A stretch of DNA of 64,000 bases. Origin: Fuerstiella marisgermanici. Its GTDB lineage: Bacteria; Planctomycetota; Planctomycetia; Planctomycetales; Planctomycetaceae. This document shows positions 4,293 to 39,149 of this stretch, in pieces (position 1 is the stretch's first letter; every line of letters starts with the position of its first letter). The translations under genes were made by a program, and so were the position numbers. The stretch spans positions 496,001 through 560,000 of the forward strand of contig NZ_CP017641.1 of the NCBI RefSeq assembly GCF_001983935.1, written 5' to 3'. Under the pieces are notes generated by a model. The model did no database searches, was not told where the DNA came from, and was given only the letters and a program-made list of their open reading frames with translations.

Positions 4293-4631
4293 CAGTCATG
4301 GCCTCTTGTGAAACACTCGTCTTCAACAGTGAAAACGCGGAACGATTGCCGGCGCTACTGAAAAAAGTGTGAATTGCGAAATGTTTCTCAACGCTGACTC
4401 GTGGGGTGAATCGCGGTTCCCAACTTAAAAAGAATTTTGCTTGATGTTTCCGCAGGCAGCACGTTTTAAGTGGAAGGGCATGTGTACTTCGGCCTTCGCC
4501 GAATTCACCTGGACCGTTCGGTCAGATCTCCCCCACTTCTCACATTTTTGCCTTTCACCAGTTCGGCGGTGCACCCGTTCGCCCGATTGGGCTGCGCGCT
4601 TTCTTCGCCGACAGAAGCAGGAGAGCTAATC
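4293..4631. other. Divergent intergenic region
   Basis: This stretch separates the kinase-like gene (leftward) from the double peroxidase gene (rightward). It carries no convincing gene. The reading frame open from a GTG at 4470 into the peroxidase gene has no leader-like sequence and begins directly after a promoter-like box, so I treat it as 5' leader. The only signal I can support is the promoter candidate at 4441-4469. Confidence 0.5.
4441..4469 (+). promoter_or_regulatory. Possible sigma70-type promoter for the double peroxidase gene
   Basis: TTGATG at 4441-4446 and TTTTAA at 4464-4469 are separated by exactly 17 bp. Transcription from here would give a leader of about 155 nt before the ATG at 4632 and would exclude the upstream GTG at 4470 as a start. 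This is a match by eye only. Confidence 0.3.
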
Positions 4632-7600
4632 ATGCTGTTTCGAAAACCAAACCGTCGTCGCAAAATGAACAAGAAGGCATCAGGGGTTTCGGCTGTGGAG
4701 TCGGTTGAAGATCGGCTGCTGCTGTCCGCGGGTTCGCTGCTCATGCCTGACGCCCCCCCCGAAGCCCGAATTGCACCCCAGCCAGATGCAGGCTTGAATG
4801 AGGACAACAACTCTGAAGAACCCGGTCGTGAACGGCGGCGGCATCACGATCACCGAGGTCCAAACCGCGGCGCGGATCGTGTACGTCGGGACGAGGCCCC
4901 GGAAAACAACAACGGGTCCGGCGTCGGGACCGTCGAAGAAGAAAGCGAAGCTGTCGATGAGAATGTCGATGCGACGGAGACCGAAGACAACTCAACGTTG
5001 GAAACTGGTGACACCGACACTCAGAATTCAACAGACGATGCTGTCGATGAGGCGGCCGTAGAACCCGAGGCTGTTACGGTCACTGAAACAGAAATGATTA
5101 TGACGTCGGTCGATGCGACGGACGTCGACAATGTCGATGCCGAAGATTCGATCGCTGCGGAAAGCGACGTTGTTCTGCAGTGGAATAATCTCTTCGGCGA
5201 CTTACTGATCGCCGACAACATTAATCAGAATCCCGGCTACGCGTCGCGATCGATGGCCATGTTGAATGTGGCGATCTACGACGCTGTCTCCATCGCGGCG
5301 GGAAACCCTGACAGCATTTTCTATGATTACGACAGCGATATCCTGAACACGTCTGGAAGCGTTTCGGCCGATGTCGTCGCGTCTCAAGCGGCTCACACAG
5401 TGCTCAGTTCGCTCTACCCGAATCAGCAGGCCATGATCGACGCGTTTCTTGACAGTGTCATCGCGGAAAACCCCGACGCGGATGCCAGCATCGCTTTGGG
5501 AACTGCAATTGGCAACAGCATTGTCGCGACTCGAGCCGACGACGGTTGGGATGCGACGGACGTCTACGTGGGCACGGACGCTGTCGGATCTTTTCAGGTG
5601 GATCCGCTGAATCCCGACGTTCCGGTTTGGGGGCCTGTCTGGGGCGAACTTGAAACGTTTGCGATTTCATCCACGGATGACTTCGCTCCGCACACAACTC
5701 CACCGCTGTCCAGTGAAGATTACGCTGATTCGTACAACGAAGTTTTGGAACTTGGCTCTGTCGACAGTACCGTACGCACGGCGGACCAGACTGAGGCTGG
5801 ACTTTTCTGGGCCTACGATCGCGAGGGACTGGGGACGCCGCTATCACTGTACAACGACGTGCTGATACAGATCGCCAGTCAGGAAGGCAATAGCTTTGAG
5901 CAAAACGCCGCTTTGTTCGCTCGGGCTTCGGTCGCCATGGCTGACGCCGCCATTGTGGCCTGGGACACGAAGTTCAGCGAAGAGTTCTGGCGTCCAATTA
6001 CGGCCATCCATGCCGGTGACAACGACGGTAACCCGCTGACCGAAGGCGACACCGAATGGACCGCTTTGGGGGCTCCCGATGGCGATAGCGATATCGTTGG
6101 GTTCACTCCTCAGTTTCCGACTTATATTTCCGGCCATGCCACCTTTGGCGGAGCGTTGTTCGGGACGCTTCAGGATTTCTATGGAACGGATGACATTTCC
6201 TTTGAGCTGACCTCCACCGAATTGGAAATCCTGCTTGCAGATCCCGATCTGCAGGCCGCTTATGGACTGGATCTGGACGACGCGACTCGGTCTTTTGATT
6301 CGTTCAGCGAAGCGATGGCGGAAAACGGACGTAGCCGAGTTTACCTGGGTATTCACTTCGACTTCGATGACCTTGTCGGTCAGGAAGTTGGTCAGTCTGT
6401 TGCCGCTGCCGTCGCTGCTGAATTCGATGCACTTGGTGTCGCATCCCCAGTTACGGGTGCGAGTGAGTTTGCATCGATTGATGGCACAGGCAACAACATC
6501 GACAACCCGGAACTCGGCAGCACCAACACCCAGTTGCTGAGGCTGGCTGACGCAGACTACGGCGACGGTGTGTCGAGTCCCGCCGGAGAAGATCGGCCGA
6601 GTGCTCGCGAAGTCAGTAACGTGATCGCTGCCGCAGAAACATCCGAAACGAACGATCGATACCTGACAGATATTTTCTGGGTGTGGGGCCAGTTCATCGA
6701 TCACGACATCGATCTGACCGGAACCGCGTTGGATGATGAGGGGAATCCAGAGCAATCGATTCCGATTGAAGTGCCAGCCGGAGATGTGTTCTTCGACCCT
6801 ACTGCGACTGGTGAGGCCGTGATCGACTTCAGCCGCTCTGCTTATGTTGAAGGGGATGACGGCGTTCGCGAGCAGGTGAATCAGATTACCGCGTTTATTG
6901 ACGGCTCAGTGATCTACGGTTCTGATGAAGAGCGGGCTGCCGAGCTGCGAACATTCGAAGGCGGACTGCTGAAGACCAGCGAAGGCGATCTACTGCCCTA
7001 CAACGAAGCAGGACTCGACAACGCGGGTGGCCCTTTTGATTCGCTGTTTTTGGCCGGTGACGTTAGAGCCAACGAAAACGTCGCTCTCACCGCCATGCAG
7101 ACGATCTGGGTGCGCGAACACAATCGCATTGCCACAGAGTTGGCCGCCGAGAACCCGGATCTGACCGACGAAGAACTGTACCAACAGGCACGGCAGATCG
7201 TCAGCGCTGAGTTGCAGGCGATTACCTTTAATGAATTCCTGCCAGCACTGTTCGGAACCGACGCCATCAGCAACTACGCAGGCTACGATTCCACGGTCGA
7301 TCCAAGTATCGCGAATGAATTTTCAACAGCAGCATATCGTTTTGGGCACACGCTGTTGTCTTCTGAATTGCTGCGGCTTGACGAAAACGGCGACGTGGCC
7401 GACGAAGGCAATCTTGCCCTGTTGAACGCGTTCTTCAATCCAGGCGAACTGGAAGAAAACGGAATTGATTCGCTTCTGCGTGGAGCAACAGTAAACGTCG
7501 CTCAGGAACTGGACAACGAAGTCGTGGATGACATTCGCAACTTCCTGTTCGGTGCACCGGGATCGGGCGGATTCGACCTGGCGTCGCTAAATATCCAACG

Positions 7601-8708
7601 CGGCCGCGACCACGGCTTGGCCGACTACAATTCCACCCGAGTTGCGTTGGGGCTGGATGCTGTGGAAAGCTTTTCTGACATCTCGTCCGACCCGGAAGTC
7701 GCTGCGAAGCTGGAAGACCTGTACGGCACGGTCGACAACATCGACCTGTGGGTGGGCGGTCTTGCCGAAGATCATTTGCCGGGATCCAGCATGGGGGAAA
7801 CATTCTCGATGATCATCATTGATCAGTTCGAACGGCTCCGCGATGGCGATCGATTCTGGTACGAGAACGTGTTCTCAGGCGACGAGCTGGCCGAAATCGA
7901 TGGTACGACTCTGGCTGATGTGATCGAACGCAACACGAATATCACCGGCCTGCAGGACACCGTGTTTTTTGCCCCGACTGTGGCCCGTCTGGACCTCGCC
8001 GAAATAGGGTCTGACGACGTCACGATTCAAGCTGTCGATGGCAACCTTGAAGTCGTTGATAATCAATCCCAGACAGTGGTCAGTAGTCAGTCACTGGCCG
8101 ATATGGAACGCATCATGGTGGTGGGCTTGAACGGTCAGGCCGACCGGATTGTGGTCGAAGGTCTGACTGCGGCCGACTTGCCTGGTGGGATCTCGATCGA
8201 AAGTGGCGACGATGCAGGTGACACGCTTGTTGTTGGCGGCACGGCGAATACCGATCACATTGCCATCAGCAGCGAACTCATTGACGTCAACGGGCTGGCC
8301 ATGGAAATGACGGGGGCCTGGCGAGTTGTCATAGTGGCCACCGACAGTGTAGGCAACGTGCACGTCTCGGATGATGTGAACTTCCGAGTGGATATCGTCG
8401 ATGGCACTGGCGACGACCATGACGACCATTCGCGGGAAGACCATCGGCCGGATGATCGTCGTGAGAGGGAAATCGCGAAACGCGAGAAGTTTGGCCGTGC
8501 CGTTCGTGTGCCGTCGGCCCGTGAAGAGTGTGAATCGGCTCAGCCCCCCGAAACTCCAAAGCGGATTGCACAACGCGCTCAGCGGCGATCAGTGCCGACT
8601 GCTGCTGCCGAAGAGAATTCTGTGCAATCGATGAGTGCCCTCGATCCGTTTTTCGCCGCTGGTAACCTCGACGATCTATCGGGCAATGCTGAACAACGAC
8701 GCAGGTAG
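4632..8708 (+). CDS. Secreted fusion of vanadium-haloperoxidase-like and animal-type haem peroxidase domains
   Basis: 1358 residues from the ATG at 4632, which has AGGAGAG just upstream. The leader is LEPR-XLL type (ESVEDRLLLSAG, about residues 25-36), followed by an acidic linker to about 175. Domain 1 (about 180-600) has the vanadate/phosphate pocket of the PAP2/vanadium haloperoxidase superfamily: K447...R454-P, SGH at 500-502, and SR...H with R569 and H575. Domain 2 (about 640-1115) is an animal haem peroxidase: distal D690-H691 in GQFIDHD, R812 and E815 in RANEN, REHNR after it, proximal H906 in YRFGHTLL, and NIQRGRDHGL. A beta-rich region and a His/Asp/Arg-rich tail close the protein. 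Both active sites look complete. Likely role: extracellular halide or peroxide chemistry. Substrates unknown. Confidence 0.88.
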   Translation: MLFRKPNRRRKMNKKASGVSAVESVEDRLLLSAGSLLMPDAPPEARIAPQPDAGLNEDNNSEEPGRERRRHHDHRGPNRGADRVRRDEAPENNNGSGVGTVEEESEAVDENVDATETEDNSTLETGDTDTQNSTDDAVDEAAVEPEAVTVTETEMIMTSVDATDVDNVDAEDSIAAESDVVLQWNNLFGDLLIADNINQNPGYASRSMAMLNVAIYDAVSIAAGNPDSIFYDYDSDILNTSGSVSADVVASQAAHTVLSSLYPNQQAMIDAFLDSVIAENPDADASIALGTAIGNSIVATRADDGWDATDVYVGTDAVGSFQVDPLNPDVPVWGPVWGELETFAISSTDDFAPHTTPPLSSEDYADSYNEVLELGSVDSTVRTADQTEAGLFWAYDREGLGTPLSLYNDVLIQIASQEGNSFEQNAALFARASVAMADAAIVAWDTKFSEEFWRPITAIHAGDNDGNPLTEGDTEWTALGAPDGDSDIVGFTPQFPTYISGHATFGGALFGTLQDFYGTDDISFELTSTELEILLADPDLQAAYGLDLDDATRSFDSFSEAMAENGRSRVYLGIHFDFDDLVGQEVGQSVAAAVAAEFDALGVASPVTGASEFASIDGTGNNIDNPELGSTNTQLLRLADADYGDGVSSPAGEDRPSAREVSNVIAAAETSETNDRYLTDIFWVWGQFIDHDIDLTGTALDDEGNPEQSIPIEVPAGDVFFDPTATGEAVIDFSRSAYVEGDDGVREQVNQITAFIDGSVIYGSDEERAAELRTFEGGLLKTSEGDLLPYNEAGLDNAGGPFDSLFLAGDVRANENVALTAMQTIWVREHNRIATELAAENPDLTDEELYQQARQIVSAELQAITFNEFLPALFGTDAISNYAGYDSTVDPSIANEFSTAAYRFGHTLLSSELLRLDENGDVADEGNLALLNAFFNPGELEENGIDSLLRGATVNVAQELDNEVVDDIRNFLFGAPGSGGFDLASLNIQRGRDHGLADYNSTRVALGLDAVESFSDISSDPEVAAKLEDLYGTVDNIDLWVGGLAEDHLPGSSMGETFSMIIIDQFERLRDGDRFWYENVFSGDELAEIDGTTLADVIERNTNITGLQDTVFFAPTVARLDLAEIGSDDVTIQAVDGNLEVVDNQSQTVVSSQSLADMERIMVVGLNGQADRIVVEGLTAADLPGGISIESGDDAGDTLVVGGTANTDHIAISSELIDVNGLAMEMTGAWRVVIVATDSVGNVHVSDDVNFRVDIVDGTGDDHDDHSREDHRPDDRREREIAKREKFGRAVRVPSAREECESAQPPETPKRIAQRAQRRSVPTAAAEENSVQSMSALDPFFAAGNLDDLSGNAEQRRR

Positions 8709-8765: not shown

Positions 8766-8852
8766 GAAGACAATAAGGGGACAGAAGACAATAAAAAGCA
8801 ATAAGAAAACGTTCTACGTTTCTTGATAAGTACAATGTCCTCTCTTCTGCTT
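8766..8852 (+). repeat. Flanking repeat, left copy (REP-like)
   Basis: This copy starts GAAGACAATAAGGGGACA and ends near TTGATAAGTACAATGTCC; both blocks recur exactly at 15027-15101 in the same orientation. The outer GGGGACA and TGTCC.CT blocks are inverted relative to each other, so the RNA or single strand could fold back. The GGGGACA core resembles REP-type sequences linked to TnpA/RAYT transposases in other bacteria (resemblance only). It lies between the peroxidase gene and the CHAT operon. Confidence 0.7.
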
Positions 8853-8942
8853 CATGGCCCACCTCGCGTCCCCAGATAAATGTGCGTTGACCCCACTTGC
8901 CAACAGGTTGCCCCTGTGTGGTTTGATGGTTAGCATTGGAGC

Positions 8943-11900
8943 ATGCCAAACCTTGCCATTACGATCAGCCCGAACCAGGCTGTTGCCGCTTCAGATGAAA
9001 ACGACACTTCAACGCCGCACGATGCACCGTGGCTGGCCGAGTGGTCCGTTGACGGAAGTTCCGTCGGTCAAGCAATCGAACTGCAGGCGGATGCGGTCAA
9101 GTCGGTCCGAGACTTCGCGAAGCAGTTCGAACGTGTCTTTGGCCGCACGACGGCCGATGGTTTTGGCGTCCGTCCATTATTTCCCAACGGGGTTCTCAAC
9201 GACCTGGGAAATCGACTGCTGGACATTGCCGGGGGCGATCTGCGAGACCAGTTGAACGCACACTTGGACGAGTCAGTAGACGCGGACCGCCGATTGGTCA
9301 TTCGTTCTGAACAGTCCGAAGCTTTGAATCTGCCGTGGGAACTGCTTCCTTTGGGCAACGGCGGTACAGCAGTTGGCTGCGACAAACGCTGGGCCGTTTA
9401 TCGGACTCCGATCGGCGAATCTGCTGTTCCGGAACCGTCACCAGCGGGGCCACTGCGAATTTTATTCATGGCCGCATCGCCAATTGATCAAAAGCCGCTG
9501 GACTACGAAAAAGAAGAAGACACCATTCTGACCGCCGTAACCACGCTGGAGGGAGCTCGCATCTTTGTCGGCGAAATGGGCAGTCTGGAAGAACTCAAGT
9601 CACTGATTAAGCAGGTTAAACCGCAGATCGTGCATCTGTCGGGGCACGGCAAACTTCAGGACAACGGTATAGGCACGTTTTGTTTCGAAGGCGAACGAGG
9701 CGAAACCGATCCCAGGTCGGCGGCTGATCTGGTGCCGATTCTGAAACAAAGCGGCGTGCAGTGCGTCTTTCTGAATGCCTGCGAGACCGCTCAGGCAGAC
9801 GTCGCAGGTTTCTGCCAGTCGCTGGTGAAAGCGGGATTGCCACTGGCCGTTGGCTGGGCGGCTCCGGTGGCTGACGATCTGGCGACAGTGTTTGCCGAAA
9901 CCTTTTATCGAGAAATCCTAGGCGGCGAAGCCATTCCGGCGGCAATGGCGTTGGCTCGGTTGAAGATCGAACGCGAAGGTCGCCGATCTGCCACCGCACA
10001 AGAACCGGAATCTCAGGATGCCACCTTCGTGCTGCCGCAGTTGTATTGTGCCACACCCGGTGAAAATCCCCCCATTGATCGGCTGTTTGATGCCAGCCTG
10101 CCAGAAAAAGACTATCGCGGCCCCGAAACACGTTACGAAACACTGCCCAACGGCGTGATCGGACTGCGACATGGATTCATCGGCCGTCGACGCGAACAGC
10201 AGACGTTGATTCCGCCACTTCGAGACGGAAACATCACCGTGGTGCTGCTGACGGGCATTGGCGGCCAGGGCAAAAGCACGCTGTGTACTCGAGTGGCCAA
10301 TCGATTGGAATCCACCGGCTTCCACATCGTGTCTGTCAAGTTCGAACGGCAAAAGGCTCGTGGGGTTGAAGAAACAGCGGCCGACTGTGGTGCTCGCGTG
10401 GTGCAGACACTGTTGAACGATCTGCGTCTGGCATTCCTTGCGGGCGGTGCCTTATCCAAAGACAAGGCGACCGAGATTTTTAACGATCCCGATCTGGACG
10501 ACGGCACCAAACTGCAGATGGCGGTTGTGTGGCTGAATGATCGCCAGTGTGATTCAAAACTGCTGATCGTGCTGGACAACCTGGAAGACGTGCTGGACTT
10601 CGACACCCTGCAGATTGTCGATCCGGCTTTGGCGGCTTTTTACCAAAAACTCACGTCTGGTTTGCGGCGAGGTTCGCGAGCGTTCATCACATCACGATAC
10701 ATTCCCGATGACACACCACGGAATGATCAGAGTGTTCGCATCACCGAAGGACTGGGTGATTTTGAAGAGCATCAGATTCTGAAATTCTTCAACCGAGATG
10801 CCACGGTTGCGAAACGCATTCGCAATGGCGAATTGCCCATGAGTCTGGTGCGGAAGGCGGCTCCTTTGGTCAGCGGGACGCCTCGGTTTCTGGATGTGGT
10901 CCGCGGACTCCTGAAAAAGTTCACCGCTGCAGAACTGAATGTCGAGCTGGAATCCCTGGCCGCAGGTTTCGCTCAACATCCGGACCATGCACCCGGCCAA
11001 TTAGAAGCGGAACGCGACAAATATTTGACCGACATTCTGGGGCCAACACTGTTCGACCGCATGTCCGACGGTGCTCGCACACTGCTGTGTCGACTATCAG
11101 TAAGCCAACTGCCATTGCCACTGGACGGACTGGAATTGCTGCTGGGTGATCAATCGGCAGCATTGGACGATGCGATTTCCCTGGCGGAAGACTATGGGCT
11201 GCTAACTCAGTTGCCGGACGCTGACGGGCCCACGCTGTACCACACACCCTCCCTGTGGCACGGTTGGCTGACACACCCCGACCGTCTTTCTGCCACAGAC
11301 ACCACTGCTGTCCACCTTTCACTGGCCGAATTTTGGCAGGACGCCTACAAACGAGACCGCGAACCCGAGCTGCGAGTGTCCATAACCGCAGAACTGGAAT
11401 CGTGCCGCCACCACGCAGCCGCGGCTGATGCGGTGGAGTTGTGCCGCTGGTCGAGTCTGCATCTCTCACGGCAGCACTATCGCGTGTCAAGCTTTAAAGA
11501 AGCCCGCCGCATCATGCTGCAGGTCCGCGAATTCATCGAAACCCGCGGTTTGCCGAAAACCGAGTTCAACGCAGAATGCCTTCATCATCTCGCCAACGTT
11601 GAGGAATCGCTGTCCAACTGGAAGGAAGCCCGGCAGTTGTACGAAGATGCACTGGCGTGCGAATTCAGTGATTCAGGAGCGGACCAGAAAGAACATGCAT
11701 CCGTGTTGGCAAACCTCGCCTGTGTGGAGATGAATGAAGGAGAGTACTCGGGCGCGCGGAAGAAATATGCCCGAGCCCAAGGGATTTTGCAGCAAATCGG
11801 AGACCGCGCCGGCGAGGCCGGGACGTGGCATCAATTGGCGAGCATCGACCTCAACGAAGGCGATTACGCGGGTGCCCGCGAGAAGTTTGGTAGATCACTC

Positions 11901-12674
11901 GACATCAGGCAGCAAATCGGAGACCGCTCCGGCGAGGCCGCGACGTGGCATGGGTTGGCGTCCATCGACGTGAACGAAGGCGATTACGCGGGTGCCCGCG
12001 AGAACTTTGGTAGATCACTCGAAATTAATCAGCAAATCGGAAACCGCGTTGGCGAGGCCGGAACGTGGCATCAGTTGGCGAGCATCGACCTCAACGAAGG
12101 TGATTACGCGGGTGCCCGCGAGAAGTTTGGCCGATCACTCGAAATCGAGCAGCAAATCGGAAACCGCGCCGGCGAGGCCGCGACGTGGCATGGGTTGGCG
12201 ACCATCGACCTTCGCGAAGACGATTACGCGGGTGCCCGGGAGAAGTTTGGCCGATCACTCGAAATCGAGCAGCAAATCGGAGACCGCTCCGGCGAGGCCG
12301 GAACGTGGCATCAGTTGGCGACCATCGACCTGAAAGAAGGCGATTACGCGAGTGCCCGCGAGAAGTGTGTCCGATCACTTGAAATCGAGCAGCAAATCGG
12401 AAACCGCGCTGGCGAGGCTGCGACGATCTATCAGATCGGTGCAACTGCCTGGGGGCGTGAGAAGCATCGGACAGCCGTGCTGCTAATGAGCATTGCCTAT
12501 CAAATTCTGGCAGCGATCGGATCTGCCTATGCAAAACCTGTCATGAAAAATTTGTCGTTTGCCTCTCAACAACTGCGGCTCGATCAAGCAGGCTTCGATC
12601 AACTCATGCTGGAAGCCGCCGCTGAATTTAAACGTGATCGCTGCAAATCACTGATTGACGATGTGTTTTCTTGA
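8943..12674 (+). CDS. CHAT protease - STAND ATPase - TPR protein
   Basis: 1243 residues. About 1-370 is a CHAT (caspase-like) domain: LPWELLPL near 137, catalytic His235 in HLSGHG, and catalytic Cys280 in LNACETA. About 405-700 is a STAND/NB-ARC type NTPase: GFIGRRREQ entry motif, P-loop GIGGQGKST with K444, Walker B LLIVLDNLED, and an arginine-containing TSRY strand. A winged-helix-like region follows, then helical repeats from about 870. Five 40-residue TPR units at about 960-1160 are nearly identical. STAND proteins usually oligomerise on sensing a ligand and then activate the attached effector, here a Cys protease. The downstream genes at 12823 and 13293 read the same way. No signal peptide, so presumably cytoplasmic. 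Ligand and protease target unknown. Confidence 0.9.
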   Translation: MPNLAITISPNQAVAASDENDTSTPHDAPWLAEWSVDGSSVGQAIELQADAVKSVRDFAKQFERVFGRTTADGFGVRPLFPNGVLNDLGNRLLDIAGGDLRDQLNAHLDESVDADRRLVIRSEQSEALNLPWELLPLGNGGTAVGCDKRWAVYRTPIGESAVPEPSPAGPLRILFMAASPIDQKPLDYEKEEDTILTAVTTLEGARIFVGEMGSLEELKSLIKQVKPQIVHLSGHGKLQDNGIGTFCFEGERGETDPRSAADLVPILKQSGVQCVFLNACETAQADVAGFCQSLVKAGLPLAVGWAAPVADDLATVFAETFYREILGGEAIPAAMALARLKIEREGRRSATAQEPESQDATFVLPQLYCATPGENPPIDRLFDASLPEKDYRGPETRYETLPNGVIGLRHGFIGRRREQQTLIPPLRDGNITVVLLTGIGGQGKSTLCTRVANRLESTGFHIVSVKFERQKARGVEETAADCGARVVQTLLNDLRLAFLAGGALSKDKATEIFNDPDLDDGTKLQMAVVWLNDRQCDSKLLIVLDNLEDVLDFDTLQIVDPALAAFYQKLTSGLRRGSRAFITSRYIPDDTPRNDQSVRITEGLGDFEEHQILKFFNRDATVAKRIRNGELPMSLVRKAAPLVSGTPRFLDVVRGLLKKFTAAELNVELESLAAGFAQHPDHAPGQLEAERDKYLTDILGPTLFDRMSDGARTLLCRLSVSQLPLPLDGLELLLGDQSAALDDAISLAEDYGLLTQLPDADGPTLYHTPSLWHGWLTHPDRLSATDTTAVHLSLAEFWQDAYKRDREPELRVSITAELESCRHHAAAADAVELCRWSSLHLSRQHYRVSSFKEARRIMLQVREFIETRGLPKTEFNAECLHHLANVEESLSNWKEARQLYEDALACEFSDSGADQKEHASVLANLACVEMNEGEYSGARKKYARAQGILQQIGDRAGEAGTWHQLASIDLNEGDYAGAREKFGRSLDIRQQIGDRSGEAATWHGLASIDVNEGDYAGARENFGRSLEINQQIGNRVGEAGTWHQLASIDLNEGDYAGAREKFGRSLEIEQQIGNRAGEAATWHGLATIDLREDDYAGAREKFGRSLEIEQQIGDRSGEAGTWHQLATIDLKEGDYASAREKCVRSLEIEQQIGNRAGEAATIYQIGATAWGREKHRTAVLLMSIAYQILAAIGSAYAKPVMKNLSFASQQLRLDQAGFDQLMLEAAAEFKRDRCKSLIDDVFS
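11821..12420 (+). repeat. Five in-frame 120-bp tandem repeats encoding TPR units
   Basis: Five units start at 11821, 11941, 12061, 12181 and 12301, exactly 120 bp apart, each coding for one 40-residue TPR-like unit. A diverged sixth copy precedes them (11701-11820). Units alternate between two types at the start, GTWHQLA (1, 3, 5) and ATWHGLA (2, 4), which implies expansion in 240-bp steps. The reading frame stays open throughout. Confidence 0.95.
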
Positions 12675-12822
12675 GGGGCGCTGACGGCAGAATCTCTTTC
12701 GCAGAATACCCAAGCCTGTTGGAATTGTGGTGATCCACGCTCTACCGGCAAACGTTGTTGACAGCCCGACTTCACCTGCGAACAATGAGGATGTTGTTTT
12801 CTTCTGCCGTGAGGAGTTGCTT

Positions 12823-13293
12823 ATGTCTCATCCATGTCTTCTGGACCCGATCCTGTCTGTCGTCGATCACCATCTTGACGACCTGCGAAAATGGAACCTA
12901 GGCGGACTCCAACGCGAACTTAACACACTGCAAACAACACTCACCGAACGCCCCCCAAAACAACAAACGGCTGCTTGGCTGGACACGCTGGCCAGTCGCG
13001 ATCACTCCCTGGTCGATTTCCTGCTGTCGCCTCAGATTACGTATGTCCCCGAGGTGGCTGAGGAGGTTCGGAAGATTCTTAGCACAAGTCCGACCGCCGA
13101 GGTCGACCGCGGGCCGTCGTTTGGACAGGTTGCGGCGGACGTGGAACTGGATGGGCAGGTCGTTAATTCGACCGTTCCCAGACTCCGCCAACGCATTCAG
13201 GCACTGACCGCCGCACTCGTACCGGAAACGCCGGACGAATCTAAGGTTGCCGAGACACTGCAATCCATCAACAAGCCGACAACTCAGGTCTGA
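12823..13293 (+). CDS. Small conserved-context protein of the CHAT operon, unknown function
   Basis: 156 residues from the ATG at 12823, preceded by GAGGAG at a good distance; an upstream in-frame GTG at 12727 lacks such a site. Predicted mostly helical and soluble: an N-terminal helical half (LSVVDHHLDDLRKW, LQRELNTLQTTL), a short beta-like GQVAADVELDGQVVNS segment near 105, then LRQRIQALTAAL. I recognise no family. The stop codon overlaps the ATG of the next gene by one base (TGATG), so the two proteins are probably made together. An adaptor or regulator in the CHAT system is a guess from position. Confidence 0.75.
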   Translation: MSHPCLLDPILSVVDHHLDDLRKWNLGGLQRELNTLQTTLTERPPKQQTAAWLDTLASRDHSLVDFLLSPQITYVPEVAEEVRKILSTSPTAEVDRGPSFGQVAADVELDGQVVNSTVPRLRQRIQALTAALVPETPDESKVAETLQSINKPTTQV

Positions 13294-14684
13294 TGCCGAC
13301 CAACGCTCAACTGACAACGTCGCACGTAACCTTCGTAAACCCCACTCGTTACGTGTGGTTCTACTTCAAAGTTCCCAATCTACGAGACACCGGACCAACG
13401 CTGGCGGAACTGCAGCAGCAATTCGACACCGTGCTGAAGGTTTATCAGGAAAAGTGCAACACGGGGACAAACAAAACGGTCACCCTGCAGCCGGGCACGT
13501 CGTTCGACAGCCATCGCCTGCTGCACATGCCTCGCAAACGACGGGGCAAGCTAAATATCGAGCTTGAAATTCGTCATCTGCTGGACGTGTTTGTTCTGGC
13601 GATTAATGTGGAAGCTCCCGGCGAATTTTCCGTGAGTAATCTGCCAGACTTCACCGATTTACAGTTCGGTCAACATGGCGTTTCAAACTATTTGGGTTCA
13701 TTCACTGTTGTGCAGGCGGAAACAAAGGGAAGCTACGGCTGTCTAATGACCGTCGCTCAAGTGTTGCACAACCACTATCTGCGGCAGTTCGGAGAACCAC
13801 TTCCTGCCATCGACACAGGGCACGCCATGTTTCTGCCGGGACCACTGGCCAATGGAATGCAAGCCGCCACGCTGGGAGCTGCCTTTGTCTACCCGGTGCA
13901 AACGGATGCAGATCGCGTTCAGCACCAGGATGGTTCGACGTTAAGCTCGCCGGAAGAGCAGCTTCTGATGCACTTGCCGCTGATCGGTTTGTGTCACCTG
14001 AAAGCCGTCAATTCCAGTAAACGCCTGAAAGAAGACCTGTCACCATCGGTACAAGCTCACGACTTTGAACTACAGCATCTGCTGGCCGGAGAACTTCCCA
14101 CAGCCACAACAGAATTTTCCGCCGAAAAGAAACGCATTGAACGCATCAACCGACGGCTGAAGGCACGAAAACTTACGCAGCTGCGACTGGAAGAATTGCG
14201 AACCGTCAGTGACAAACTGACGGACGGGCGGTCATCATTGACTGAAAAGACAGAAGAAACCCGACGGGAAGTTCACACGATTTCGATCAACCGAAGGAAC
14301 CTGATTGCGGCGACAAAAACGTGGCCGCAGGGTGCTGATGACATTGTGGAATTGCTTTATGATCGCATCGCGAACAGCCCCGTCGCTCAGGCAGAAAGTG
14401 ATCAGGACTACGCTGCATCCACGCTAAAACGAGCCGACGTATTTTTCGAAAGCATCGAAGCGTCCGCTCGCTGCCACGAAGTGCAGGAAACTCGCTGGGT
14501 CACGCACGTGATGGTGATTCTGGGAGCCTTCGCTGCCGCCGATCTGGTTCCCTCATTGGTCGGCAGTGACGCATTTAATCAGTTGTCATGGGGCATGCGA
14601 CTGCTGATTGAATTTGCCGTGTTCGCAGCGACGGTACTGGCCGCGATTGCATTACTCACGTTCAGACGGTCCAAATCAAAGTAG
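13293..14684 (+). CDS. Two-TM membrane protein of the CHAT operon, unknown function
   Basis: 463 residues. About 1-260 is a mixed alpha/beta soluble region without a motif I can name. About 265-340 is highly charged and probably coiled coil (EKKRIERINRRLKARK, then EELRTVSDKL and EKTEETRREV). Two membrane segments lie at the C-terminus, about 405-426 and 437-457, followed by RRSKSK. The layout of a long helical stalk with two terminal TM helices suits a membrane-anchored effector or a target cleaved by the CHAT protease; this is inference. Translationally coupled to the preceding gene. Confidence 0.8.
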   Translation: MPTNAQLTTSHVTFVNPTRYVWFYFKVPNLRDTGPTLAELQQQFDTVLKVYQEKCNTGTNKTVTLQPGTSFDSHRLLHMPRKRRGKLNIELEIRHLLDVFVLAINVEAPGEFSVSNLPDFTDLQFGQHGVSNYLGSFTVVQAETKGSYGCLMTVAQVLHNHYLRQFGEPLPAIDTGHAMFLPGPLANGMQAATLGAAFVYPVQTDADRVQHQDGSTLSSPEEQLLMHLPLIGLCHLKAVNSSKRLKEDLSPSVQAHDFELQHLLAGELPTATTEFSAEKKRIERINRRLKARKLTQLRLEELRTVSDKLTDGRSSLTEKTEETRREVHTISINRRNLIAATKTWPQGADDIVELLYDRIANSPVAQAESDQDYAASTLKRADVFFESIEASARCHEVQETRWVTHVMVILGAFAAADLVPSLVGSDAFNQLSWGMRLLIEFAVFAATVLAAIALLTFRRSKSK

Positions 14685-14709
14685 GCACCGGACGCAAGTC
14701 TGAAACGGA

Positions 14710-14731
14710 CGTTCTGCTTTATCGCAGGACG
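14710..14731 (+). terminator. Possible hairpin terminator of the CHAT operon
   Basis: CGTTCTGC (14710-14717) pairs with GCAGGACG (14724-14731), with one G-T pair and a 6-base loop, 25 bp after the last stop codon of the operon. There is no T run after it, so it may only be a 3' end stabiliser or chance. Confidence 0.25.
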
Positions 14732-15026
14732 AATCTAAGACATAAGAAAGTAACAGTTTAGTTCGTCGGTGTTGATTTATACGATTGATTTTGGCGGGTC
14801 TGAAATTTGATTCTTCTGTGGAGCTGAAGGCAGGTGTGACAGAAGAGCGTGATTGTTCTGGGAACAGAAGGCCGTCGTGATGGGGCGGCCGAGTTGGACT
14901 GTTCAGCGCGCCACGCTAAGGAACTTCCGACTTCTTCGTCGCGAGCGTTAATGGCAAGTGAAGCGGGCTCTGATAAGTACGCAGATGCGTCAATGCTGAC
15001 GCGGCGAATAACGTTTCAGCGCCGCT

Positions 15027-15101
15027 GAAGACAATAAGGGGACAAAGACAATAAGAGGCCATTCTACTTTATTGATAAGTACAATGTCCGCTTTTCTGCT
15101 C
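15027..15101 (+). repeat. Flanking repeat, right copy (REP-like)
   Basis: Second copy of the element at 8766-8852, same orientation. It shares an identical 18-base start (GAAGACAATAAGGGGACA) and an identical 18-base block TTGATAAGTACAATGTCC near its end, with a shorter middle. The pair encloses about 6.2 kb containing exactly the three-gene CHAT operon. Confidence 0.7.
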
Positions 15102-15431
15102 CGCGGCTAAGAAGGCCAGCAGGCTTCCCGCAGGGACGCTGTTCACTGCCGTTACTCTTGTCTGAACTCAAATACACTCCCTCAAACGCAAACAATACTA
15201 CGCACCGCGCCCAACTTCGAAAGGAGGGCGGCCCTGCCCAACGGTCCACGGCGCCGTGGGCGGCGCGGTCGATAGATTCAGCCGCCGAAATGTTGATAAT
15301 CGCCGTCACGTTGGAAGAACCACCCATCGGCCGGCTCAACTTGTCCAAAGCTTCGGCAACCTTTGTTGTGTTGAACGTTGTGGAGGCAATCGTGACCGCT
15401 GGCCAAACCATTTCCCACCTGAAACAACCCC

Positions 15432-18400
15432 ATGAAACGTACCGCTGCGCTGACCGCTTTGTTTCTCGCTATGACAGCCGGGATCTCGCAAGCTGAAGAT
15501 AAAAAGGAAACGCCTGAGCAGGCCGCCGTTCGCATTGCGAAGATGGAGAAGGTTGCCGACCACGCGCTTGTGCCGCCGGTGGTGAATACTTCGCCGCTGC
15601 CGGAGTACGACTACGATAAGCTCGATTATGGCATGACCATCGGCATCGAACGCACGCCGGGCGGGAGGCTGTGGTCCTGTTGGGTTGCGGGCGGTGACAG
15701 CCCGGACGCATTCTTCATCCTCGCTTCCAGCGACGACGACGGTGAAACGTGGTCGAGCCCTCGCGCGGTGCTCAATTCTCATGCGCAGGGGCTCGGCGCA
15801 AAACGGAGCATCCTTGTTGGCAATCTCTGGACCGATCCCCAAGGTCGGCTGTGGCTGATCTTTGATCAATCGATGGATATGTACGATGGCCGCGCCGGCG
15901 TGTGGGCGACCGTTTGCGCGAACCCCGACGCTGATGCGCCGGTGTGGTCCGAACCACGCCGCATCTGGCACGGCGTGACGTTGAACAAACCGACTGTCCT
16001 CTCCACTGGCGAATGGATGCTGCCGATCTCGCTTGACCAACGCCCTGGCTTTCGAGAGTTCCGTGGCTGCTTCCGCGAACTCGACCCGCTGCGCGGCGCG
16101 AACGTCTTCGTTTCGAATGATGAGGGGGCGACATGGGCACGGCGTGGCGTCAGGACGTTTCCTGATCCTGATTGGCATGAGCACATGATCGTGGAACGCG
16201 ACGACAATTCGCTCTGGATGCTGGCTCGCACGCGCAAGGGCATCATGGAATCGGAATCGACCGACGCAGGTCGCACGTGGTCGGAGCCAGTTGCTTCGAA
16301 GATTAATCATCCGGTCGCACGGTTCCACATTCGACGTCTGGCTTCGAACCGCCTTCTGCTCGTGAAGCACGGAGCCAGAATCGACACGCACGAAGGGCGC
16401 AGTCTTCTTACGGCGTGGCTCAGTGACGACGATGGCAAAACCTGGCGCGGCAGCTTAATGCTCGATGAGCGGACTGGTGTGTCATACCCCGATGGCTTTC
16501 AGGCTCCTGATGGCACGATCTACATTTCATGGGACCGAAACCGCGCGACGGACGGCGAAATCCTGATGGCTCGTTTCACCGAAGATGACGTCCTCGCCAA
16601 AGAATTCAACGGGCCGAAGTCGAAGACGAAAATGCTCATCAGCCGTCCACTCGCGCGTGAAGTGGCAAAGCTTCCTGCGTTCAGTGGCCCGACACCCGAA
16701 GTGAGCCGCGAGATCGACATGCCGCTTGTCGATCTTTCACAGGACAAAGATCGCCACTCCGTTGTCGCTGCGGGCACGACGTCGGTTTATCAGGGTCACT
16801 GCGACACGGTTCTGTTGCTGGACGGCAAAACGATGTTCACCGCCTGGTGTCTCGGCCACGCACAATGGATTGGCCCGATCGCAAAAAGTACAGACGCGGG
16901 ACTCACCTGGAGCAAGCCGCTGAATGTGCCGGCGAACTGGAAGGAAACCTCAAACACGCCCGCGTTACATCGCCTTATCGGGCCAGACGGCACCGCGCGA
17001 CTCTTCTGTTTTGCAGATGGTCTTGATTGGAGCCGTCAGGGGAAACCGCCCTACCCGATGCATCAATCGTATTCCGAAGACGGTGGCGAAACCTGGACCC
17101 CCATGGTGCCGAACGGCGTTGAGGGAGAAGTTCCTCCGAAGCCGATCCTTAGTTTTGATGACGGCAAGCGGCACGTGATGTGGAGCGATCTTCCGGGCTA
17201 CGTCGTCCAAAGCGATTCGATCGACGGTGGTCTGACCTGGAGTCCCAGTCGTCGCATCCTCCGCGTTCCGCAACGATGGAGTCAGCCGTGCGTGATCTGT
17301 TCGGCCGATGGCAAAACGCACCTGATGCTGCTTCGAGAAAACAGCCGCAAACACCAGTCGATGTTCTCCGTCAGCCGCGACGGTGCGAAGACCTGGACCG
17401 CACCGAAGGAGCTGCCTGCCGCACTCACGGGCGATCGCCATGTTGCCAAATTTGCTCCCGACGGACGTTTGGTGATCGCGTTTCGCGACGTGGCCACCAG
17501 CAGTGCAACATACGGCCACTATGTTGGTTGGGTCGGGCGTTTCGAAGATATACTCAAAGGCAAACCGGGCGACTACCGCGTCAAACTTTTCCACAACACG
17601 ATCCGTAAAGAATCTGACAAGCCCGGTCAGGGCAACGCCGATTGCGGCTACTCCGACCTCGAAGTACTGCCAGACGGTACCATCATCGCGACAACGTACC
17701 TGAAATACGCCGATGGTCCTGAAAAGCATTCCGTCATGAACACGCGTTTCACGCTGGCGGAAACGGATGCGTTGGCGGAACAAGTCGCGTTTACCAGCCT
17801 GTTCGATGGCAGGAGCTTTTCTGGTTGGGAGCACGCTGGCAACTGGAGCATCGAAGACGGTGCCTTTGCCCGCAAACAGGCAGGCGGACCACTCACGTAC
17901 ACCGACGCTCTTGTGCCGGACGACTTTGAACTGCGTTTTGAATGGAAAGTGTCGAAGGGGTGCAACTCCGGCGTCTACTATCGCCCGGCCCAGTACGAGT
18001 ACCAGATTCTCGACAACGTCCACAGTCCCTACGGCAAAAACGCTCGCCAATCAGCCGGTTCGCTTTTCTTCTGCATGGCACCGTCCAAAGACGCGACCAG
18101 ACCGTTGGGCGAATGGAACAGCGGCCGGGTGAAATGCAAAGGCTCGGTCATCGAACATTGGGTCAACGGTGAGCGGGTGTTGTCCTTCGACTACACAGAT
18201 CCGAAGTGGGCGAAGCAGGTCGAACTGCTGAAGATTCGCGGTGCGGATTTGACGGCACGCGGTGGACGGTTGTGGCTTCAGGACCACGGACAGGATGTCT
18301 GGTTCCGCAACCTACGCTGGCGTGAGATCCCTCATGACGAGCAACTTACGGCCGATCCGGATTTCATTCCGATGCCAGTCACAGGAGAAGCACTGAAGCA

Positions 18401-37239: not shown

Positions 37240-37929
37240 TTACTTCGCCACGCGGCCGATAAACATCAGCTTGCCCCAGCCAATCTGCTGCTGCTCCATT
37301 TCGAAATGAGAATGCAACAGATCGAGTATCTGCTGCGGTCGACTTAGCCAGTTTTCGTAGGTGTCTCGTTCGCGTTCCGTCATGCGAGCCAAAGCGTCGC
37401 CTCGGCGGTAGAACATTCGTACCAGGCGTCGATCAGTTATGGCATGAGCGACCTTCAAAAACGGAGTCGACCACGGTTCCACCAGAACAATGCGGCCACC
37501 CGGATTCAACACGCGGCGGATTTCCTGAAGCACTTTCCCCAGATCATCGGGAAGTGTCGGTAAATGATGCAGCCCGCCCTGCACAACGATGACGTCTTTG
37601 TGGTTGTCGGGCCAATGCAGATCGCGGCAATCACCCACGTACAACGGTACATCGCCGTCAAACTCCCTCAGCAGACGCGGCGACAGGTCGACGCCTTCAA
37701 GGTTCTGAAAACCAAGGTGTCGCAGAGTTGTCAGGCCGTTGCCTCGACCGCAGAACAACTCAGCAACTGCCAGCTTCTTGTCCCAGCGGTCGACGCCCAG
37801 TTGTCGGTACCTCGCCACAAACTTCGATCGTTCTTCGGCAGGCGACTCGAAGTCCAGATACGCCTGCTCCCAGGCTTCGTCACAACACGAATCGTCAGCG
37901 ACCCAATAAGTGATGTTGCCGTCCGTCAT
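37240..37929 (-). CDS. SAM-dependent methyltransferase (class I)
   Basis: 229 residues from the ATG at 37929, which overlaps the stop of the GT2 gene as ATGA; the longer frame to 38187 lies inside that gene. SAM-binding motif I is AELFCGRGNGLTTLRHLG near 60; the acidic motif II is EGVDLSPRLL, followed by VVQGGLHHLPT and LNPGGRIVLVEPW. It resembles the UbiE/methyltransferase 11 group. As the last gene of a four-gene unit with two glycosyltransferase-type proteins and an esterase, it probably methylates a sugar or lipid intermediate. The substrate is not readable. Confidence 0.85.
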   Translation of the reverse strand: MTDGNITYWVADDSCCDEAWEQAYLDFESPAEERSKFVARYRQLGVDRWDKKLAVAELFCGRGNGLTTLRHLGFQNLEGVDLSPRLLREFDGDVPLYVGDCRDLHWPDNHKDVIVVQGGLHHLPTLPDDLGKVLQEIRRVLNPGGRIVLVEPWSTPFLKVAHAITDRRLVRMFYRRGDALARMTERERDTYENWLSRPQQILDLLHSHFEMEQQQIGWGKLMFIGRVAK

Positions 37930-39149
37930 TGTGACTCGCCCATGCTCGAAGACGGTTGGTGGTGCATCCGAAGAATGCCCAGAAACAGCGACGCGAGCGC
38001 GGTCTGCACGGCCAACGCAGTCAGAGTCACTCCTGGAATTACCCATCGCATCGTCACCGCGTAGTCCAATCGACCGAACTCGGCGCGGTACCATTGCAGC
38101 ACCGCGCACAGTAATAGGCCAGTTCCCATCAAACCGACGATCGCGGCACCAATTAGCATTCGTTCCAGTGTGGCCACATTTATCCATTGCGTCAGCCCAC
38201 GATGAACGGGCAGCATGCCGCTGTCAGTGCCGTATACCTGAGCCAGCACGGCAAAAATGACGGATTGAAACCCGACAATCGCAGATAACGAAGCGAACAG
38301 CAACGTGTGAGCGTCAAACGTTGCTCCACCAATTGTGACACCTGGCAAAGCGACCGCGTATCCAAGCACTCCCAGCAAGATCATCAACAGCCCTGGCAGA
38401 AAGAATGTCCACCGTGGTGAGTACAGCATGAAGAAGCGAACGGTTCTCCAACCATCGCGAAACGTTCGAAGATGGGGCGGGTGAGCCTTCCGGCCGTCTG
38501 GATGCAGAGTGATCGGCACTTCCGAAATACGGCCCTCAACCAGCGTACTTTTGACGATCATTTCTGTCGCGAATTCCATCCCTGTGCAACGTTGATTTAA
38601 CGATTCGTAGAAGTCGCGACGAAAGCCACGCAGGCCGCAATAGATGTCGTGAATAGGGACTCGAAAAAACACGGCCGCCATTCGAGACAGCATCGGGTTG
38701 CCCAGCCAACGATGCAGAAACGGCATAGCGCCAGGAAGAATTTGCCCCCCACCAGAAGGCAGTCGGCACCCCTGAACCAGGTCGCTGCCTGCTCGCAACG
38801 CGTCGACGAACTTTGGGATCTCAAGAAATTCGTAGCTATCATCCGCGTCCCCCATAATGACAAATTCACCGCGAGCGGCAGCGATGCCCCCCATCAACGC
38901 GCTTCCGTAGCCTCGCTGAGGAACGTCGACAACGCGAGCACCCAAATCGATTGCCAGTTTCTGCGATCCGTCATCGCTGCCGTTGTCGCCGATGACGACT
39001 TCGCCATTGATGCCGTGAGCTGCGAAGGCCTGTTGAGCTTTCCGGATACACGTTTCGATCGTATCCGCTTCATTCAGGCAGGGCATGACGACACTGACTT
39101 CGACGTCATAGGTGTTAGGCGGTGATTCTGTATCGGACAATTCTGTCAT
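37926..39149 (-). CDS. Family 2 glycosyltransferase with C-terminal membrane helices
   Basis: 407 residues from the ATG at 39149, which overlaps the stop of the preceding gene (ATGA). The GT-A domain spans about 15-240: SVVMPCLNEADTIETC, GDNGSDDGS, FVIMGDADDSYEF (metal-binding DAD), and HDIYCGLRGFRR. Four or so hydrophobic segments follow (about 255-390). It resembles polyprenyl-phosphate sugar transferases of the dolichol-phosphate mannose synthase type. It probably loads a sugar on a lipid carrier for the GT39-like protein encoded just upstream. Confidence 0.88.
   Translation of the reverse strand: MTELSDTESPPNTYDVEVSVVMPCLNEADTIETCIRKAQQAFAAHGINGEVVIGDNGSDDGSQKLAIDLGARVVDVPQRGYGSALMGGIAAARGEFVIMGDADDSYEFLEIPKFVDALRAGSDLVQGCRLPSGGGQILPGAMPFLHRWLGNPMLSRMAAVFFRVPIHDIYCGLRGFRRDFYESLNQRCTGMEFATEMIVKSTLVEGRISEVPITLHPDGRKAHPPHLRTFRDGWRTVRFFMLYSPRWTFFLPGLLMILLGVLGYAVALPGVTIGGATFDAHTLLFASLSAIVGFQSVIFAVLAQVYGTDSGMLPVHRGLTQWINVATLERMLIGAAIVGLMGTGLLLCAVLQWYRAEFGRLDYAVTMRWVIPGVTLTALAVQTALASLFLGILRMHHQPSSSMGESQ

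Follow-up and report, generated by a model that had tools for sequence, protein, structure and literature searches.

The genes at positions 8766 to 15107 of the window (the whole 64,000-nucleotide stretch of DNA analysed here, whose home is a single-contig genome of 8.92 Mb) raise the question of whether a predicted receptor-protease and the two genes behind it form a conflict or cell-suicide system, and how such a system would relate to those already named. The first gene (8943..12674, plus strand) encodes P1, a protein of 1243 residues that was analysed as an open reading frame and by Pfam, alignment and an AlphaFold2 model. It carries a CHAT domain (residues 95-348; 9225..9986, plus strand; PF12770, E 1.1e-22, 81.3 bits against a cut-off of 24 in Pfam), followed by the core of a STAND NTPase (AAA_16, residues 412-558; 10176..10616, plus strand; 34.2 bits against a cut-off of 32.6) and, from residue ~877 onward, by matches to several TPR models of Pfam. 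In a four-row alignment H235 and C280 of the CHAT domain and K444 of the STAND core are all invariant; in a 36-row alignment this still holds for C280 and K444, while H235 is conserved in at least 90%. With the predicted catalytic His and Cys in place, P1 is assigned by sequence to the CHAT peptidases (PF12770), and the P-loop together with the modelled NOD fold identifies it as a predicted STAND NTPase.

Residues 1-860 of P1 were modelled by AlphaFold2 with the 36-row alignment (pLDDT 84.5, pTM 0.86), and a Foldseek search with this model placed Apaf-1 at the top, followed by CED-4, the STAND-TPR protein 6mfv (which we take to be PH0952) and a SAVED-CHAT filament, with Csx29/TPR-CHAT and separase lower in the ranking. 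Since the TM-scores, normalised by query length, are only ~0.2-0.33, these are matches at the level of domains, and together they point to a predicted order of caspase-like protease, apoptosome-like switch and repeat sensor. The likeness to the top matches, Apaf-1, CED-4 and 6mfv, lies in a STAND core that is followed by a repeat sensor, whereas P1 differs from them in having the caspase-like protease fused in the same chain. Hence Pfam, the alignments and the AlphaFold2 and Foldseek results uphold the CHAT (H235, C280), STAND (K444) and TPR assignments of the original prediction, and the protease-receptor half of its interpretation, in which an Apaf-1-like STAND core is joined with CHAT and a TPR sensor in one protein, is well supported.

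The TPR array includes five near-identical units of 40 residues (11853..12452, plus strand; comparison of the units as DNA and protein), in which column 19 of the unit varies. They were compared with the units of L040, a P1 homologue that is ~80% identical; its contig of 4769 bases belongs to a MAG named Candidatus Kuenenia stuttgartiensis and may be misbinned. Of the 15 pairs that the six units of P1 form, 14 agree at 73-91% of their DNA and one at 64%, and for the pairs among the six L040 units (L040:3243-3962) the figure is 80-95%. Across 11 units (five of the six in P1, the divergent first unit being left out, and all six in L040), column 19 holds seven amino acids from eight codons and columns 20-23 are invariant. 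First-base diversity at column 19 reaches 0.73, whereas four-fold sites average 0.18 with a maximum of 0.64, the codon counts covering columns 1-30. The signal is strongest in L040 and weak in P1 alone (0.6, tied with four other codons), and in a third array (L059) the equivalent column (18 in its own register, matched by eye) reaches 0.53 and is among the six most variable listed, not first. Passages on fungal NLRs describe highly conserved repeats that carry hypervariable codons and, for one fungal TPR locus, map these codons to the concave side (PMC4986451). The TPR units of P1 resemble such repeats in being near-identical with a highly variable codon, a likeness for which the close comparison covers P1 and L040 only.

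The two genes behind P1 had been described as tightly linked to it and to each other. All three open reading frames do lie on the plus strand, and P2 and P3 have one base in common (13293), but the linkage is looser between P1 and P2. The frame of P2 opens at GTG 12727, and its start is probably ATG 12823, which is preceded by GAGGAG, the extension 12727-12822 being weak in coding signal. With this start P2 has 156 residues (12823..13293, plus strand) and the gap behind P1 is ~148 bp, so that tight coupling would be limited to P2 and P3. A promoter-like site lies ahead of P2 (12758-12786), such sites being no commoner than in shuffles, and the counts from promoter and terminator scans were likewise no higher than in shuffles. 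Codon use in P2 and P3 is coding-like in their own frames. P3 (463 residues; 13293..14684, plus strand) consists of an N-terminal region, a helical middle and two C-terminal TM helices predicted from hydropathy (residues 406-424 and 437-455; 14508..14657, plus strand). The helices thus agree with the expected coiled-coil protein with a C-terminal membrane anchor of two helices, and the coiled coil itself is a sequence pattern only; a single-sequence model of P3 (pLDDT 36) is uninformative on its fold.

That neither partner belongs to a recognisable family was confirmed, as searches with P2 and P3 against Pfam, PADLOC, NCBIfam, PHROGs and PDB gave nothing beyond noise. P3 is an orphan, with no relative in the 57 other related genomes searched or in genome contigs, the scan of the latter being a single-protein pattern scan that reaches close relatives only. 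A search of 392 genomes of the phylum, in which four candidates were scored per genome and to whose sensitivity the absence applies, gave partial matches at E<=0.1 (best 9.9e-4) in 20 genomes besides this one; their frames were read in every case, and none held a protein built like P3. An assignment of P3 to plasmid, phage or viral-contig proteins was rejected, there being no match in any of the three, as was one of P2 to viral-contig or plasmid proteins, for the same reason; the scans of viral contigs with P3 and P2 were likewise pattern scans at the level of close relatives.

The system had also been called undescribed, and this is doubtful: its gene order and architecture resemble those of the named CATRA systems, although the family models do not match. 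CATRA systems, for which the original paper is reportedly that of Burroughs and Aravind in 2020, are a described family of predicted conflict systems, named as such in excerpts that give no tested example. The family has three Pfam models (CATRA-N, CATRA-C and CATASP; accessions PF20269, PF20270 and PF20271), and the examples considered here were obtained by searching actinobacteria and actinobacterial plasmids. Within one class, 27 of 345 genomes had CATRA-N; within one order, 3 of 150 had it above the cut-off, and a further 13 genomes had none. Like the CATRA clusters, the window has a CHAT protease, a small protein and a larger partner side by side with a gene overlap, and P1 provides the caspase or CHAT protein with TPRs that is expected in such a cluster. 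The order of CHAT, small protein and TM partner is that of the actinobacterial locus L146, where genes for a CHAT protein (1264 residues), CATASP and a CATRA protein with TM helices follow one another with an overlap, the parts being confirmed by Pfam; CATASP and CATRA genes overlap in L144 and NZ_CP108308 as well. CATASP lies within 400 bp of 21 of the 37 CATRA proteins fetched (counted among frames of at least 100 residues, shorter ones being missed). Two hydrophobic stretches were flagged in 6 of the 37 and, by inspection, stand directly after CATRA-C in three (L144, L145, L146). The proteases differ, in that CHAT stands first in P1 and is joined to a STAND core, whereas among seven neighbours of CATRA genes scanned it was found in six, always C-terminal and with no STAND at E<=0.001, and one matched nothing.

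In sequence, the likeness of P3 to CATRA stays below threshold. Against three CATRA profiles, HMMER without filters gave E values of 8.4e-4, 2.5e-4 and 2.2e-4, each for a single comparison, and residues 298-394 (14184..14474, plus strand; HMMER and hhalign) align collinearly to 297-387 of the first profile as a sub-threshold match to CATRA-C. The HMMER score of P3 was matched by 16, 19 and 31 of 2000 shuffles in one set of tests and by 2-18 of 2000 in another, depending on the profile and the type of shuffle. Reversed P3 scored 3.6 bits against 4.5 forward with one profile, and -2.4 and 1.3 with two others. Natural ORFs scored at least as high as P3 in 13/4092, 7/3916 and 4/4495 cases for the three profiles, these totals being the ORFs reported by HMMER out of 5302. 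By hhalign the match of P3 was not significant (E 0.098, 0.029 and 0.33, probability at most 1.7%), and its score was beaten by 1 of 60 shuffles. In Pfam, P3 matched neither CATRA-C nor, at E<=1, CATRA-N (its first 220 residues not even at E<=10), and P2 did not match CATASP, for which 645 of 2000 shuffles scored equally well. No CATRA likeness was seen in the N-terminal half of P3, where 222/300 and 246/300 shuffles were equally good. When this genome was searched with CATRA-C at E<=10, six places were listed, P3 not among them, and a 29-row CATRA profile matched nothing in this genome (4 of 44 candidates scored). Elsewhere in this genome, a frame of 1350 residues has a CATRA-C match (L027, G000:C1:4534385-4534612) whose 24.6 bits equal the Pfam cut-off, and which could be a chance helical match. 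In the phylum, CATRA-like partial matches at E<=0.01 were found in 2 of 392 genomes (four candidates scored per genome). Semi-global profile alignment of P3 and CATRA was discarded as uninformative, with 268 of 318 natural decoys scoring equally well.

Because the Pfam models are unmatched, the hhalign result is not significant and the HMMER match is sub-threshold, CATRA membership is not claimed. The reading that we favour, with a probability of about 0.45, is that P1, P2 and P3 form an operon for conflict or cell suicide, working in the manner of a CATRA system, and P2 and P3 might be linked to CATASP and CATRA in evolution. STAND proteins are described as ADP-bound at rest and multimerising upon induction (PMC6468293). 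In the operon, a ligand would bind the TPR array of P1, ADP would be exchanged for ATP in the STAND core, which would then oligomerise, and the clustered CHAT domains would become active. The active protease would cut P3, or P2 if this restrains P3, and the two-helix membrane module of P3 would damage or remodel the inner membrane. CHAT substrates are said to be commonly encoded near the protease (PMC9729208), and we infer that the membrane protein P3 could be cleaved by P1. If the reading is true, a single bacterial protein would unite the receptor, switch and protease of an apoptosome, with a membrane executioner encoded beside it. The variable residue of each TPR unit would then give direct access to the ligands that these receptors recognise, and the neighbours, which change from relative to relative, would reveal how one CHAT receptor is coupled to different outputs. 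Such a CHAT-STAND variant, paired with a membrane protein, would also be a tractable test case for CATRA-type conflict systems.

Two other groups show similar parts. Bacterial gasdermin operons are described as having a caspase-like protease beside a membrane effector (PMC9612521), much as the caspase-like P1 adjoins the candidate membrane effector P3, but P3 gave no gasdermin match in family searches and carries a pair of hydrophobic helices at its C-terminus. In Craspase, the CHAT protease is described as answering an immune signal (PMC9729208). The CHAT folds of the Craspase TPR-CHAT protein (Csx29) and of SAVED-CHAT match P1, but P1 has no SAVED or gRAMP match and P2 and P3 match no family. 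No title on the P1-P2-P3 operon was found in the open literature searched, most subscription papers lying outside that search.

Relatives of P1 were found at 66 loci in a scan of genome contigs, including Planctomycetota, ANME-1 and Methanotrichaceae archaea, Verrucomicrobiaceae and Acetobacteraceae; single-protein pattern scans reach close relatives only. Neighbours were listed for the best-scoring 30 of the 66 loci. In three Planctomycetota loci a sigma-70-like gene lies 3' of the CHAT frame, at 9 bp (L052:13541-14233), 12 bp (L068:13520-14203) and 477 bp (L039:3973-4662), with Pfam matches that exceed the cut-offs in L068 and L039 and fall below them in L052. These genes recall the RpoE of type III-E CRISPR loci. 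Other neighbours are a Nal1_C/trypsin-like protein (L047) and, below threshold, a winged helix (L048). On an Azospirillum plasmid, a relative with 34% identity is followed by a small gene that overlaps the CHAT-STAND-TPR gene (L209:9387-9764), and in a planctomycete a small gene stands upstream of the CHAT gene (L037:5169-5627). Both products have a hydrophobic segment and they are 45% alike over 82 residues (E 1e-17), and the Azospirillum protein shows no likeness to P2 (E 0.99). A Verrucomicrobial locus (L043:6318-13796) has two CHAT genes, with membrane coiled-coil-like proteins around a P1 relative. Such variety is as expected of a receptor with swappable clients. A bolder form of the favoured reading, which we hold doubtful, would make P1 a one-chain apoptosome, in which a CHAT caspase, an Apaf-1-like NOD and a TPR sensor diversifying mainly at one residue per repeat drive a fast-evolving CATRA-like membrane executioner. 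The receptor-protease would then have been rewired across lineages to different plug-in effectors, among them a membrane protein, a sigma factor, a trypsin-like protein and a small hydrophobic protein.

The conserved linkage of the two downstream genes to CHAT proteins that the original prediction looked for was not found: phmmer, run on the ORFs of 66 CHAT loci, detected no relative of either P2 or P3, and in L040 the 585 bp between the P1 homologue and the end of its contig contain no P2. These absences, together with the gap of ~148 bp from ATG 12823 and the promoter-like site inside it, argue that P1 may be a self-standing receptor-protease with an unrelated membrane gene pair lying downstream by chance. 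We regard this as unlikely on balance, given the same strand, the common bracketing by a unique repeat pair and a gene order like that of CATRA operons; moreover, because the L040 contig ends where it does, a pair further away is possible there. It is decidedly improbable, in our estimate, that the protease is a signalling device and not a killer, the CHAT domain cutting a membrane-tethered partner and thereby altering gene expression or envelope state. The sigma-70-like genes behind the CHAT frame in the three Planctomycetota loci are consistent with this, as is the type III-E TPR-CHAT protein, described as cleaving Csx30 bound to RpoE (PMC9729208), but in Pfam neither P2 nor P3 matched a sigma factor or a DNA-binding domain.

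The bracketing repeats bear on whether the cluster, or 8766-15107 as a whole, is a horizontally acquired cassette, with the repeats as attachment or target-site scars and a function that may serve a mobile element. The operon had been placed exactly between two same-orientation copies of a GGGGACA-type repeat. The pair is real and unique and does bracket the genes, but not exactly: the left copy (8766..8860, plus strand) begins 177 bp 5' of P1, and the right copy (15027..15107, plus strand) lies 343 bp 3' of the P3 stop. The 15-mer GACAATAAGGGGACA occurs at exactly two places in the 8.92 Mb genome, 8769 and 15030, and a dispersed GGGGACA repeat family was rejected on this count. For a left stretch of 111 bases there is a single real second copy (79% alike, E 1.5e-13), three further matches being of 16-17 bases with E 0.86 or worse, and none of 100 window shuffles reached three repeat matches within two mismatches. 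The repeat TTGATAAGTACAATGTCC, with at most one mismatch, was found in 0 of 57 other relatives searched. A structured element was rejected, as the repeats fold little better than shuffles (z -0.88 and 0.28), and Rfam at the gathering threshold and tRNA scans gave no matches. The two copies may be the scar of an insertion or may serve as a common regulatory element, the latter because both lie 5' of a gene, P1 on the left and a BNR gene at 15432 on the right. A cassette would fit the uniqueness of the pair in the genome, the occurrence of P3 in 0 of 57 other relatives and the Azospirillum plasmid, where the P1 relative adjoins TniQ, TniB, a Mu-type transposase and a recombinase. It is nevertheless the least probable of these explanations, and a very improbable one, given that no recombinase was recognised between the repeats (ORFs, Pfam), the base composition resembles the surroundings, the copies are only ~79% alike and the pair may be regulatory. 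An empty site was not found in six regions, chosen from BNR matches in 19 of 29 genomes, because these regions are not syntenic.

The favoured reading of a CATRA-like operon finds no defence island around it in the scanned part of the window, which comprised 13 proteins for PADLOC and 8 others for Pfam. Pfam recognised no defence family in the 8, and PADLOC gave a generic TPR match of P1 and a partial mad2 match at 37240-38187 (E 3.2e-14). Just upstream of the operon, 4470-8708 of the window encodes a protein of 1412 residues with an animal haem peroxidase domain (Pfam) and a sub-threshold vanadium chloroperoxidase/PAP2-like region.
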